Positions 7,533 to 55,389 of a DNA stretch of 64,000 nt are shown in pieces (the stretch's first letter is position 1; each line of letters begins with the position of its first letter). The position numbers and the translations under genes are program-made. Source of the DNA: Chryseobacterium gleum (GTDB lineage: Bacteria; Bacteroidota; Bacteroidia; Flavobacteriales_D; Sanyastnellaceae); assembly GCA_945881835.1 (NCBI GenBank), contig CAMCVP010000001.1, forward strand, positions 434,001 to 498,000, read 5' to 3'. The notes beneath the pieces are model-generated. The model had not been told where the DNA came from, ran no database searches, and was given only the letters and a program-made list of their open reading frames with translations.

Positions 7533-8180
7533 ATGTCAGTAAAAATCAGATTACAGCGCCACGGTAAGAAGGGTAAACCATTCTTCCACATTGTTGCCGC
7601 TGATGCGCGTTCACCGCGTGATGGTAAGTTCATTGAGCGTATCGGAAGCTACAATCCGAACACCAATCCTGCTACAATTGTGTTAGACACAGACAAAGCA
7701 GTTACTTGGTTGTTTAACGGAGCGCAGCCTACAGACACTGCTCGTGCAATTCTTTCTTACAAAGGTGTTTTATACAAAGCACACTTGAACAAAGGAGTTA
7801 AGAAAGGAGCATTGACTCAAGAACAAGCAGATGAGAAATTCAACGCTTGGTTAGATTCTAAAGATGCTAAAATTCAAGCGAAGCGCGATGGTCTTTCTTC
7901 TGTTAAGGAGCAAGCATTAGCTGAGCAATTGAAAGCTGAGCGTGCGGTTAACGAAGCGCGTATCGCTGCTCGTGCTGCTGCAGATGCTGCTGCTCACGCA
8001 GAAGCTAATCCAGTTGTAGAAGAAGAAGTTGTTGCTGAAGAAGTTGTTGCTGAAGAAGTTGTAGTTGCTGAAGAAGCTCCTGCAGTTGAAGAGGCTCCAG
8101 CTGCTGAAGAAGCTCCAGTTGCTGAGGCACCTGCTGCCGACGAAGCACCTGCTGCTGACGAAGCACCTGCTGCTGAATAA
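7533..8180 (+). CDS. rpsP: 30S ribosomal protein S16 with long acidic tail
   Basis: Residues 1 to about 80 are the conserved S16 domain ([20 protein letters not shown], then [14 protein letters not shown]). S16 binds 16S rRNA early in 30S assembly. After it comes a charged helical stretch rich in Lys, Glu and Ala, then from about residue 155 a low-complexity tail built of Glu, Ala, Val, Pro and Asp (repeats of the EEAPAAE kind). Bacteroidota S16 is normally extended, but this tail is especially repetitive. rimM, usually the next gene, is about 3.3 kb downstream here. Confidence 0.97.
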
Positions 8181-14466: not shown

Positions 14467-14513
14467 TCCCCCACCTTCAGTGGGGGCATTACTCATGTCG
14501 CCCTAAGGGGCTC
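14467..14513 (-). repeat. REP-like element, inverted third copy over the tnpA stop
   Basis: Read on the minus strand this has the same two-hairpin plan: GCCC-ctta-GGGC, a linker with CATGAGTAATG, and CCCCCA-loop-TGGGGG. The stems differ from the flanking copies but still pair. It contains the TGA stop of the transposase gene, so the last codons of the protein are part of the repeat. Confidence 0.75.
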
Positions 14514-14936
14514 GCTGATGTGCGTCTCAATAAAGTTTCTGTTTCTTCCAGAGAATTCAAAACTGGAGTGATGCTCCTTTTGGTTCTGAATATACTTTTT
14601 CAATCGCGGTATTTCTGATTCACCGATACTGTATGCAGCATACCCCAATTGCCATTCAAAATCTTTGAGGAATTCCGCTTTAGTTTTCATCCAACGCGAT
14701 GAATTTGTCTTTAATTTTTCAGCAAGTTTCATCACTGCGATTTTTCTGGATAAGAAACAAAGGATATGAACGTGATCATAATATCCTCCAATTTCAATTC
14801 TAGGACACTCCATTTCAACACACAGACCTCCTAAATAGGTGTGCAAATCATTTTCAATTTGAGGGAGAATAAAAGGCTGTCTATACTTAGTTGAGAACAC
14901 CAGGTGAATAGCAATTTGTGAGATAGATTTTGCCAT
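14493..14936 (-). CDS. tnpA: Y1 (HUH) transposase, RAYT/IS200 type
   Basis: The 147-residue protein starts MAKSISQIAIHLVFSTKYRQPF, a Y1-transposase opening, and has the HUH metal site as DHVHIL and a candidate catalytic Tyr in KKYIQNQKEHH. These enzymes cut and rejoin single-stranded DNA at sites recognised through hairpins. The upstream ATG at 14972 is less likely because homologues start at MAK. The C-terminus ends ISEPLRAT, encoded within a REP-like palindrome. No frameshift is visible, so it may be active. Confidence 0.9.
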   Translation of the reverse strand: MAKSISQIAIHLVFSTKYRQPFILPQIENDLHTYLGGLCVEMECPRIEIGGYYDHVHILCFLSRKIAVMKLAEKLKTNSSRWMKTKAEFLKDFEWQLGYAAYSIGESEIPRLKKYIQNQKEHHSSFEFSGRNRNFIETHISEPLRAT

Positions 14937-15006
14937 ATTTTTTTTCGAGCTAAGTTCAATATGACATTTCACAAAGTCAAGAAAGACTTATGCTTATAAA
15001 AAGACA

Positions 15007-18080: not shown

Positions 18081-18861
18081 TTCCTTTCCAAATCTTGTAG
18101 CTCTCTTCTGCTTGAATTTCAAGCATGCTGAGGCCGTTGCAATAGCGCGCGCCGCGCGAGATGCCTTCTTGAAGAAAGGCTGTTCTTTCCGGATTGTAAA
18201 TTAAGTCGTACAACACATGCTGATCTGTAAGACACGAATAATCCAAGTCTGGTTTTTCTTCGCTGTGTGGGAACTGCCCAACAGGCGTGGTGTTCACAAT
18301 GAGCTTGCACTTCTCGAGCAACAAGGGTGTTACCTGGTCGTAAGAACAAGTATGATCGTTTTGCGGATTTCGACTTACAAAAAAATAACGGATACCTAAT
18401 TCCTTCAACACAAAAGCCACCGCTAGCGATGCTCCTCCGGTGCCGAGAATAAGCGCAGTTTCTACTCTGTTTTCAATAAGCGGAAGAAGCGTCCGTTTGA
18501 AGCCGATGTAATCGGTGTTGTGACCAATCCAACGGTTATTCTCAATACGCACACAATTCACAGCGCCAATGGCTTTCGCTGCTGGCGTGAGCTCGTCGAG
18601 GTACTGAATAATTTCTTGTTTATATGGAATGGTGACATTGAAGCCGGCGAGTACTTGCATTTGCGGCAAGTTTCGAATGCCAACGATAGAATCTAATTCA
18701 ATATTGATATATCGCTCTTCTTGTGTAACATCTTTCGTAGAATCTTGCGAAGCATCTTGTGAAACATCTTTCGCAATATCCTGTCTTTGAAATTTAGACA
18801 TGAAATATGTTTGCGAAAAAGAATGTCCTAACGATTTCCCGAGAAGCCCATACGTTCTCAT
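18070..18861 (-). CDS. aroE: Shikimate dehydrogenase with an in-frame repeat insertion
   Basis: The 263-residue enzyme reduces 3-dehydroshikimate to shikimate with NADPH. Visible motifs are YGLLGKSLGHSFSQ (substrate binding), NVTIPYK (catalytic Lys), HNTDYIGF, ILGTGGAS (dinucleotide loop), VNTTPVG and NGLSMLEIQAEESYKIW at the end. Residues 28-47 are five tetrapeptides of the form D-x-x-K/Q (DIAK, DVSQ, DASQ, DSTK, DVTQ), lying where other AroE proteins have a short helix-strand connection. They are encoded by the mini-hairpin array at 18719-18778. All catalytic motifs are intact, so the enzyme is probably active. It is the last gene of a comA-rhodanese-dedA-aroE run and overlaps dedA by four bases. 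Confidence 0.93.
   Translation of the reverse strand: MRTYGLLGKSLGHSFSQTYFMSKFQRQDIAKDVSQDASQDSTKDVTQEERYINIELDSIVGIRNLPQMQVLAGFNVTIPYKQEIIQYLDELTPAAKAIGAVNCVRIENNRWIGHNTDYIGFKRTLLPLIENRVETALILGTGGASLAVAFVLKELGIRYFFVSRNPQNDHTCSYDQVTPLLLEKCKLIVNTTPVGQFPHSEEKPDLDYSCLTDQHVLYDLIYNPERTAFLQEGISRGARYCNGLSMLEIQAEESYKIWKGITS
18719..18778. repeat. Mini-hairpin array inside aroE, tct linkers, 12-bp period
   Basis: On the plus strand five 12-bp units follow each other, each a tct linker plus a 3-bp stem with a three-base loop: TGT/ACA (gta), TTC/GAA (gta), TGC/GCA (gaa), TGT/ACA (gaa), TTC/ATA (gca). Four of five stems pair perfectly although their sequences differ. The 12-bp period keeps the frame and gives the tetrapeptide repeats of AroE. 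Confidence 0.8.
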
Positions 18862-30950: not shown

Positions 30951-33470
30951 ATGAACTTCCGACGCGCTCTAATTTTCACGTGTGTGGTGTTGATAAGCTC
31001 CTTATTGAACCCGTTGTCTGCGCAGTCTGATACCTTGTCGCCAATGCCTGTTGACACCCTTTATTTTTCTTCGGAAGAGCAAGCCATGGAAGAGGTTCAT
31101 TATTTCGGGAAGGACAGCACGGTGATGGATTTGATTAATGATCGCGTGTATTTATATGGATTGGGTTCCTATGTTACGTACGGAGATTTAGAGTTGAAAG
31201 CGGGATACATAGCTTTTTCCTTGACCGACAACATTGCTTTCGCGAAGGGATTCAAAGATTCGTTGGGGGTTTATACGGGAAGGCCAGTATTCACGCAAGG
31301 AGAGACATCGTTCGAAGAAGATTCCTTGGGATATAATTTCAAATCGAAAAGAGGAATTAGTTATGGTGTTCGCACGGAAGAGTCCGACGCGTATTTGCAC
31401 ACTGCCATTTCGAAGATGCAGGTAGACAAGACCATTCACATTCGAAAAGGTAAATTCACCACGTGTTCGAATCCGAATCCGCATTTCCATTTTCAATTGT
31501 CGAAGGCCATTATTATTCCGAATGAAAAGATTGTCAGCGGTCCGCTATACTTGCAATTCAGGAAAGTGCCGGTACCGTTGGGATTGCCGTTTGGATTCTT
31601 TCCGAATAAAAAAGAAAGCACTTACGGAATATTAATCCCAGGATATGGAAATGGAAGGGCGAAGGGATTCTTCGTTCAGAACTTGGGATACTATTTCCCC
31701 ATTAACGATCACATAGACACGAAGCTTTTGTTCGACGTCTACACCGGAGGATCTTGGAGTGTGAAGAACATTACGAACTATAAGACTCGATATAAGTATC
31801 AAGGTTCATTCAATATTTCAAGAACCGTTAACAAAACGGGCTTCCGCGAGTTATCGAATTATTTACAGCAGTCGACTTTCAACATTCGTTGGAATCATTC
31901 GCAAGATCCGAAGGCACGTCCGAACGAATCGTTCAACGCGAATGTGAATTTGGGAAGTTCTCAGAATTTCAGAAATAACTTGAACGCTACGCAACAAGAT
32001 TTCTTAACGAGCACCTTCAACTCTGCGGTGCAATGGTCGAAGTCTTTTCCTGGAAAGCCTTTCTCGTTGGCGCTTTCAGCGAATCACACGCAGAACACAC
32101 AATCGCGATTGGTTCAGATTACGCTTCCATCTGCGGCGTTCAACGTTTCGCGTATTAATTTGTTGAAGAAGGTCTTTCCGAAATCTCCAATTGGAATTAA
32201 CGCCTCGGTGAATACCGAGCAGCAGCTTTCGGCTTATGAGCAACAGTTCGGACAGTTGACCATGAGTGAATTGTTGAACAAGGCAACCAGCGGGGTTCGT
32301 ATGAATACTACCGCAAGTACTTCTTGGAAGTTGGGACAGTTTTTAACCTTGAATCCGAGTGCAACCTTCACGGGTTACGGGACTTGGAAAGTGGTTTCTC
32401 CGATTGGCGATGCGCAGTTGGATACGGTTGCTGGGTTCAAAGCAGCGGGGAATTGGTCTACTCAGATTTCAGCCAACACGCGTATTTACGGAACATTTGT
32501 AAGGAAGGGCGCGAAGAAGTTGAAAGCGGTTCGACACATGATTCAGCCTAACGTTGGGTTCTCCTACACGCCTTATCAGAATTTCCAGCAGTTCGGCTAT
32601 TACGGCGTGAACGGCGAGTTCTTGGGGTATTCGGCGTTTGATGCGGCAAGGTTTGCGCCAACGAGTTCATCGCAAACTGCGAACATGAATTTTTCTATTA
32701 ATCAGAATATTGAAGCGAAGGTTCGCGACGAGTCTTCTGCGAAGGTGTCGTATAAGAAGGTGAAGATTATTGACAGTTTTAGAACCAGTACATCGCGCAA
32801 CTTCATGGCCGATTCTATACAGTGGAGCAACGTGAATTTCTCGGCCTTTACATCGGTTGGAAAATTCTTAACAATGAACTATTCGTCTTCTTACAGCATG
32901 TACGATCGCGATTCGTTGGGTCGGAAGATTGATACGTTTTTGAATGAATCGCGAAAAGGAATTGCGCGCATGGAAGGCACTAATTTAGCATTGGGAATTG
33001 TTGTGCGCAGCAAGCAGGCGAAGCCAAGTTCTAATCAGACAGCGGCTAATCCGGCGGTTACTCCTCAGCAGCAAGAGATTCTTTCTACTAACCAAGCGAC
33101 GTTGATCGACTTCAATGTGCCTTGGAATTTGAGTGTGAATTACAATTTACGCATGAGTAAGAAGTGGTTGGTTGATCAACAGCGCGACAGTTCTATCTAT
33201 ACGCAAGCGGTGACGTTCATGGGCGATGTTGCCTTCGCGAAACGCTTGGCGTTGAGCTTCAACGGCGGATACGATTTCAACGCGAAGGAAATGACTACGA
33301 CGACCATTGGCCTTCACATAGATCTTCACTGTTGGGAGTTAAGTGCGAACGTGGTACCGTTCGGACTTCGTCAGAGTTATTACATTCAGCTGAATATTAA
33401 ATCGCCTTTGCTGCAAGATCTGAAATTGCAGAAGCGAGGTAATTTGGGAGAGGATTATTTGCTCTATTAG
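30951..33470 (+). CDS. lptD: LPS assembly outer-membrane protein LptD
   Basis: The protein is 839 residues from MNFRRAL, chosen because it begins a clear signal peptide ending LSAQS; the frame is open further upstream over the amidase start. An OstA/LptA-like periplasmic domain (NDRVYLYGLGSYVTYGDLELKAGYI) is followed by a large beta-barrel with GIPGYG-like and alternating aromatic strands. LptD inserts LPS into the outer leaflet with LptE. The TAG stop lies within the first hairpin of the array at 33461. Confidence 0.9.
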   Translation: MNFRRALIFTCVVLISSLLNPLSAQSDTLSPMPVDTLYFSSEEQAMEEVHYFGKDSTVMDLINDRVYLYGLGSYVTYGDLELKAGYIAFSLTDNIAFAKGFKDSLGVYTGRPVFTQGETSFEEDSLGYNFKSKRGISYGVRTEESDAYLHTAISKMQVDKTIHIRKGKFTTCSNPNPHFHFQLSKAIIIPNEKIVSGPLYLQFRKVPVPLGLPFGFFPNKKESTYGILIPGYGNGRAKGFFVQNLGYYFPINDHIDTKLLFDVYTGGSWSVKNITNYKTRYKYQGSFNISRTVNKTGFRELSNYLQQSTFNIRWNHSQDPKARPNESFNANVNLGSSQNFRNNLNATQQDFLTSTFNSAVQWSKSFPGKPFSLALSANHTQNTQSRLVQITLPSAAFNVSRINLLKKVFPKSPIGINASVNTEQQLSAYEQQFGQLTMSELLNKATSGVRMNTTASTSWKLGQFLTLNPSATFTGYGTWKVVSPIGDAQLDTVAGFKAAGNWSTQISANTRIYGTFVRKGAKKLKAVRHMIQPNVGFSYTPYQNFQQFGYYGVNGEFLGYSAFDAARFAPTSSSQTANMNFSINQNIEAKVRDESSAKVSYKKVKIIDSFRTSTSRNFMADSIQWSNVNFSAFTSVGKFLTMNYSSSYSMYDRDSLGRKIDTFLNESRKGIARMEGTNLALGIVVRSKQAKPSSNQTAANPAVTPQQQEILSTNQATLIDFNVPWNLSVNYNLRMSKKWLVDQQRDSSIYTQAVTFMGDVAFAKRLALSFNGGYDFNAKEMTTTTIGLHIDLHCWELSANVVPFGLRQSYYIQLNIKSPLLQDLKLQKRGNLGEDYLLY

Positions 33471-33599
33471 AGCAAGAATGTGCGAAGCACGAATGCCCGA
33501 AGGGCGAGGGTCTTTGACGAGGGCAACTGGCGTTGCGAGGGCAATTAGCATTGCGAGGGTCCTATGGACGAGGGTTGCGGAGCAACGAGGGTCTTCGAC
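33461..33599 (+). repeat. Mini-hairpin array with gagg linkers, copy 1
   Basis: Nine hairpins follow one another. Stems in order: GCTC/GAGC, GTGC/GCAC, GCCC/GGGC, GTC/GAC, GCAAC/GTTGC, GCAAT/ATTGC, GTCC/GGAC, GTTGC/GCAAC, GTC/GAC. Loops are 3-5 bases (gaa, ttt, tggc, tagc, tat, gga, ttc among them). The first linkers end in gaat; from the third stem on every linker is exactly gagg. The lptD stop codon is inside the first hairpin and the array ends eight bases before the dinB stop. Confidence 0.85.
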
Positions 33600-33606
33600 G
33601 ATTCAA

Positions 33607-34125: not shown

Positions 34126-34151
34126 GATGTGATGATTAGTATAATGTCAAC

Positions 34152-34242
34152 GAGGGTCTTCGACGAGGGCAACTGTGTTGCGAGGGCAATTTGCGTTGCG
34201 AGGGTCCGGTGGACGAGGGTTGCGGAGCAACGAGGGTCTTGG
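34152..34242 (+). repeat. Mini-hairpin array with gagg linkers, copy 2
   Basis: The stems GTC, GCAAC, GCAA, GTCC, GTTGC and GTC come in the same order as in copy 1 and again with gagg linkers. The loops differ (ttc for ttt, tgt for tggc, ggt for tat). The last unit is decayed. It lies between the dinB start and the parE stop. Confidence 0.85.
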
Positions 34243-55335: not shown

Positions 55336-55389
55336 GTCGCAGACATTCGCCACAGGCATTCGTTCGAAGAACATTCGTCACAGACTTTC
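55336..55389 (+). repeat. Mini-hairpin array with attc linkers
   Basis: Four hairpins in a row: GTC/GAC (loop gca), GCC/GGC (aca), GTTC/GAAC (gaa), GTC/GAC (aca). The linkers are attc, attc, attc, and after the last unit tttc. All four stems pair perfectly. The array fills the gap between two convergent genes and starts 10 bases after the stop at 55326. Confidence 0.85.

Follow-up and report, generated by a model that had tools for sequence, protein, structure and literature searches.

An in-frame array of 12-bp mini-hairpin units in aroE is a probable member of a genus-specific DNA element family in freshwater Flavobacteriales

Results

A mini-hairpin array lies inside aroE

The window, that is the whole 64-kb stretch of DNA analysed here, carries a gene for shikimate dehydrogenase (aroE) within which an array of short palindromic units is translated in frame (Table 1). 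Each unit consists of a TCT linker, a 3-bp stem, a 3-nt loop and the second half of the stem, the last unit is followed by TCC, and the TCT strand, on which the loops are of the GNA type, is the template strand of aroE. A first-pass annotation of the sequence had described five 12-bp units that create five D-x-x-K/Q tetrapeptides. The translation of residues 28-47 (D28-I-A-K, D32-V-S-Q, D36-A-S-Q, D40-S-T-K and D44-V-T-Q) agrees with this, whereas at the DNA level four units are perfect and the fifth (TTC/ATA) can be counted only if one mismatch is allowed. This is the single run of at least three perfect one-linker units within the window, and no such run appeared in 20 local shuffles. The array is missing from the output of TRF for the window, because its units share their symmetry and their linker but not their whole sequence.

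The identity of the gene product is supported by a match above cut-off to PF08501, the substrate-binding domain of shikimate dehydrogenase, and by its best PDB match, 5dzs (E = 2.6e-35); the score against the NCBIfam equivalog TIGR00507 was 150.9 bits and thus below the cut-off of 200.2. Both the substrate-binding and the NAD(P) domain that define a shikimate dehydrogenase are present. An alignment of AroE places the array between the HSFS-helix and the Y-x-N-x-E-L (YINIEL) strand, and because of this position the enzyme most likely still works, with the insert being near-neutral. An AlphaFold model, based on an alignment of only three close sequences, had a mean pLDDT of 33 and was unusable.

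Table 1. Coordinates of hairpin arrays and associated genes in the window
Feature	Positions	Strand	Remarks
RAYT-like Y1 transposase gene	14493-14972	-	Y1_Tnp
aroE, shikimate dehydrogenase, 263 aa	18070-18861	-	residues 28-47 encoded by array
TCT-family mini-hairpin array	18719-18778	+	four perfect 12-bp units and one imperfect
Unit 1, TCT TGT-GTA-ACA	18719-18730	+	coding strand DVTQ
Unit 2, TCT TTC-GTA-GAA	18731-18742	+	coding strand DSTK
Unit 3, TCT TGC-GAA-GCA	18743-18754	+	coding strand DASQ
Unit 4, TCT TGT-GAA-ACA	18755-18766	+	coding strand DVSQ
Unit 5, imperfect, TCT TTC-GCA-ATA	18767-18778	+	coding strand DIAK
CATTCG-family units	33459-33505		just ahead of CGAGGG array at 33505
CGAGGG-linker hairpins GCAAC-TGGC-GTTGC, GCAAT-TAGC-ATTGC, GTCC-TAT-GGAC, GTTGC-GGA-GCAAC	33505-33600	+	intergenic
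Second CGAGGG-linker array	34150-34242	+	intergenic; unit order similar to array at 33505
CATTCG-linker array CATTCG-CCACAGG-CATTCG-TTCGAAGAA-CATTCG	55336-55385	+	

The aroE site is empty in some relatives and filled in others

Nine genomes of the genus were compared, with G000 being the genome of the window; all nine were assembled from metagenomes and are fragmented, so that mis-assembly of repeats is possible. The label Chryseobacterium gleum, which is attached to metagenome assemblies of this group, looks like a misnaming. The length of the aroE site was taken as the number of residues from the T(Y/F)GLLGKS motif to NVTIP. This interval measures 57 residues in G004 and 59 in G007, the array-empty congeners, and 59-61 in 15 orthologues from outgroups in the family and the order, all of which are empty, whereas in filled congeners it extends to 77 (G000 and G001), 101 (G005), 73 (G002) and 70 residues (G006). 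Variation in four-residue steps, which the first-pass annotation had suggested looking for at this site, was found (57-61 empty versus 70-101 filled). G000 and G001 possess five units and G005 eleven, the 24 additional residues of G005 relative to G000 corresponding to six units, and G005 contains a repeated four-unit block. The arrays of G002 and G006 have the opposite orientation and mostly CCT linkers and are translated as L-x-[K/Q]-[N/H/D]. In a tree of AroE sequences from which the arrays had been removed, the empty G004 clusters with the filled G002, which implies at least two changes at the site.

The repeat unit is a DNA element

Genome-wide counts rest on pattern searches; the statistics on arrays were computed on stretches picked around the matches. 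A two-unit pattern gave 48 matches in G000 and 13-109 in each of seven other genomes of the genus, but none in G007 and none when reversed patterns were used as controls. A narrower unit pattern had no match in 21 genomes outside the genus, and a unit scan of 84,980 species matched solely contigs of this group, all from metagenome-assembled genomes; the hosts of TCT/CCT arrays form one genus of freshwater Flavobacteriales. A viral origin was considered and rejected, as there were two viral-contig matches only, both apparently ordinary low-complexity coding repeats without arrays of perfect units.

Across these genomes, a constant TCT or CCT linker is joined to a variable 9-bp palindrome with 3-bp stems. 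When units were defined by their linkers alone (n = 430), stems were perfect in 91% of them and the stem positions covaried, with 413 matches at pair 2 (190 expected) and 399 at pair 3 (240 expected). On the TCT strand, 291 of 391 perfect units have a GNA loop. Arrays of opposite orientation form inverted composites, 46 with one polarity and 4 with the other, and many arrays are one-sided. Roughly one array region in two lies between genes, and in many cases a stop codon is tens of bases away. The earlier suggestion that the aroE array is of the same type as intergenic arrays holds insofar as TCT-family arrays are found between genes elsewhere in the genome, whereas the intergenic arrays of the window itself belong to sister linker families.

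It had also been proposed that the protein does not need the stem symmetry, and synonymous positions bear this out. In coding units picked by protein sequence, the four-fold wobble base of codon 3 tracks the second base of codon 2 (52 T-A, 16 T-G, 0 C-A and 118 C-G; Fisher P = 3e-32, and 3e-5 on distinct 12-mers, values that overstate independence because units within an array are copies). In the remainder of the same genes no such link was detected (counts of 474, 471, 423 and 356). Residues combine as the stem demands, Q occurring with A or V and K with S. Relatives with the same residues in non-palindromic codons would have made the symmetry a coincidence; instead, wobble bases follow the stem across the arrays. 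The repeat unit is a DNA element and not a protein repeat.

Folding calculations gave a less favourable picture. Nearest-neighbour DNA folding of single units yielded only -0.3 to 0 kcal/mol, which speaks against the explanation preferred below, and the complete aroE array was not clearly more stable than its shuffles (z of -1.3 and -1.9 on the two strands) with parameters that assign equal energy to GNA and TNC loops. Single strands forming GNA mini-hairpins of the d(GCGAAGC) type are unusually stable, a stability that the standard folding parameters fail to reproduce. For extraordinarily stable mini-hairpins, Tm values of 76.5 and 88.5 C were reported with 2-bp and 3-bp stems, respectively (PMC10527192).

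Arrays reside in frame in many conserved genes

By Pfam and NCBIfam assignment, in-frame arrays are carried, besides aroE, by the genes for aspartokinase and a family 2 glycosyltransferase, by that for phosphoglucomutase, where the array separates domains I and II, and by nine or more others. Further hosts are a GNAT acetyltransferase, Ppx/GppA, a putative cyclase, a periplasmic binding protein, a DUF4846 lipoprotein, an Alg9-like mannosyltransferase, several unnamed proteins, a T9SS protein with the array ahead of its sorting domain, and a family 3 glycosyl hydrolase with the array just after its signal peptide. Together with some of these sites being empty in relatives, this supports the earlier view that arrays can enter genes. 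Coding arrays are mostly translated in one codon register, as D-x-x-Q or L-x-K-N, but the array of the family 3 glycosyl hydrolase reads S-x-E-x and the register is therefore a preference, not a law. In a short lipoprotein-like ORF found in four stretches, the array makes up a large share of the protein (60 to 184 array residues), and D-x-x-Q and L-x-x-N segments are mixed in the same type of ORF.

Stems TAC/TAT, which give a TAA stop in the usual register, were absent from 319 coding units and present in 54 of 467 noncoding ones (P = 2e-13, again overstating independence), indicating that purifying selection acts on translated copies. As a unit has 12 bp, gaining or losing one leaves the reading frame unchanged and alters the protein by four hydrophilic residues. 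In keeping with this, a consequence already pointed out in the first reading, 40 of 114 TCT arrays but only 8 of 69 arrays of the sister families, whose units have 13-18 bp, lie in open frames (P = 0.0005).

Arrays turn over rapidly

The aspartokinase site is empty in G000, G004 and G007 and filled in G001, G002 and G005, although G001 is the closest relative of G000, and at the glycosyltransferase site one unit in G001 compares with 21 in G006. In 88 of 108 pairs of orthologous arrays for which both flanks could be aligned, the two arrays are of unequal length, and 3 pairs are identical; where the flanks are at least 88% identical, 32 of 36 pairs differ in length. Turnover of the arrays is therefore fast and proceeds by gain and loss of whole units. 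Between G000 and G001, with flanks 97-99% identical, one unit has its whole loop swapped from GAA to ATC, and such a change next to nearly identical flanks indicates rewriting of the unit rather than point mutation. Rewriting fits template switching together with slippage; template switching is known to create and repair perfect stems (PMC8794818). No target-site duplication was found at the arrays.

Sister linker families and RAYT genes

Two further families, with CGAGGG and CATTCG linkers, are represented in the window by intergenic arrays (Table 1), where the two CGAGGG arrays flank one small gene. The CGAGGG family is present in eight of the nine genomes of the genus and the CATTCG family in six, with none in G002, G007 and G008. 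In G000, the CATTCG triple-linker pattern had 22 matches, and among the matches listed 44 of 44 CATTCG hairpins had stems of at least 2 bp, compared with 3.6 in shuffles. Beside two RAYT genes there is a fourth linker, approximately GATCAATC. The repeat at positions 8012-8177 of the window is an ordinary A/E/P/V-rich coding tandem repeat of 15-18 bp and apparently not related to the hairpin arrays.

Y1_Tnp genes were detected in four of the nine genomes (two in G000, and in G001, G004 and G006) and were not found in the incomplete assemblies G003, G005, G002 and G008. In G000:C14 and G006:C10, the RAYT domain is preceded by a CATTCG array at a distance of 200-330 bp, and other hairpin runs adjoin the RAYTs of the window and of G006:C64. 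In the run upstream of the window RAYT the linkers resemble ATCAATC, and palindromes, CCCCCAGCTTCACTGGGGG among them, flank the gene. The RAYTs of G000:C14 and G006:C10 share the same upstream order of CATTCG units but differ in the next gene, a CoA-transferase-like ORF in the former and a transposase-like ORF in the latter. No TCT arrays were present in the RAYT stretches examined. At least for the CATTCG family, a RAYT is a candidate mover.

Discussion

The explanation that we regard as likely is that the aroE segment belongs to a family of genus-specific DNA elements, polar arrays of 12-bp units in which a constant TCT/CCT linker alternates with a variable, near-always-perfect mini-hairpin, and that these turn over by slippage or recombination and by template switching. 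Arrays would lengthen, shorten and be rewritten by replication slippage or by recombination between units, perfect stems would be regenerated through template switching inside the hairpins, and the GNA loops of the TCT strand, which are of the type that forms stable single-stranded mini-hairpins, may aid the switching. Translated copies would be filtered by selection, and to the host the arrays are probably neutral or mildly deleterious. What the pattern suggests is a DNA element able to spread through genes and leave them unbroken.

Alternatively, the arrays could be non-autonomous, REP/REPIN-like elements mobilised by a RAYT (a Y1/HUH tyrosine transposase) that recognises the linker foot and a single-stranded hairpin. 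The Y1_Tnp genes in four genomes, the CATTCG arrays upstream of two RAYTs, the other hairpin runs beside two more and the composites inverted as in REPINs (PMC3116915) agree with such a mechanism. However, array-rich G003 (96% complete, 100 matches) and G005 (77 matches) have no Y1_Tnp, TCT arrays are absent from the RAYT stretches, and the linker is neither GTAG nor CGTC, so that we consider this reading unlikely. The RAYT as a single mover was rejected, as it does not occur in all array carriers. It is quite improbable that the palindromes are functional, as binding sites or as RNA or DNA structures (terminators, mRNA stabilisers, nucleoid sites), with genic copies as by-products: the frequent intergenic location close to stop codons would suit such roles, which have been assigned to REPs (PMC3733652), but stems, loops, order, number and orientation vary freely at orthologous sites and the aroE array as a whole folds poorly. 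Selection at the protein level for charged linkers, with the DNA symmetry a by-product of codon choice, would account for the one main codon register and the hydrophilic tetrapeptides, but is refuted by the wobble bases; the same symmetry in noncoding arrays and a single aroE site that encodes D-x-x-Q or L-x-K-N depending on the species also speak against it, and it hardly deserves credence. Finally, an assembly artefact of a repeat-rich metagenome, which the fragmentation of all genomes and a masked stretch within an array of one relative might suggest, is extremely improbable, since the separate assemblies G000 and G001 agree on five units save one loop and the flanks are co-linear and in frame in five genomes.

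With the arrays regarded as DNA elements, their resemblance to described systems is partial. The palindromic elements of Rickettsia also occur both between genes and in frame in conserved genes, the products of which can stay active (PMC2229807; PMC3733652), but they are 105-146 bp long, in a class of single stem-loops of 100-150 bp with terminal inverted repeats, whereas the arrays consist of 12-bp units with their own 3-bp stems, up to 21 per site. With REP, BIME and REPIN sequences the arrays share units of foot plus hairpin, inverted composites (though many arrays are one-sided), an intergenic bias and some copies in ORFs; REP clusters encoding 43-82 aa are known from Thauera and R. conorii (PMC3733652). 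In contrast to REPs, which have 20-40 bp and a GTAG or CGTC tag, the arrays have a TCT/CCT foot and a 9-bp palindrome, a constant linker with a freely variable hairpin, and no RAYT found in all carriers. Because of their size and their foot, they fall outside both classes. Coding minisatellites (VNTRs) likewise gain and lose units in frame within genes, but the units of the arrays are not identical copies, linker and symmetry are what is conserved, and many unrelated loci share the same units. The small dispersed repeats of cyanobacteria are very small repeated and probably mobile elements of 21-27 nt; they resemble the arrays in being very small and repeated, and are set apart by their description in not being arrays of variable hairpins. 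By analogy, the arrays seem to work on genes like Rickettsia palindromic elements and intragenic REPs, with composites like those of REPINs. In the literature, no description of such arrays in Bacteroidetes or freshwater Flavobacteriales was found.

More tentatively, and with some doubt on our part, the several families (TCT, CATTCG, CGAGGG and perhaps GATCAATC) might have in common that the linker is constant and the adjoining hairpin is rewritten from unit to unit and yet perfect, which would be the outcome of a copying process that makes hairpins instead of copying one, of a kind not described before. If this is true, a hairpin-making process writes in-frame peptides into housekeeping enzymes whenever its unit length is divisible by three. 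The many natural recent insertions and expansions in conserved enzymes, together with empty sites in close relatives, make the tolerance of proteins to inserts measurable, and the birth of in-frame repeats can be measured from the same events. The design of constant linker and variable hairpin also makes it directly testable whether stems are maintained by template switching or by a dedicated enzyme.
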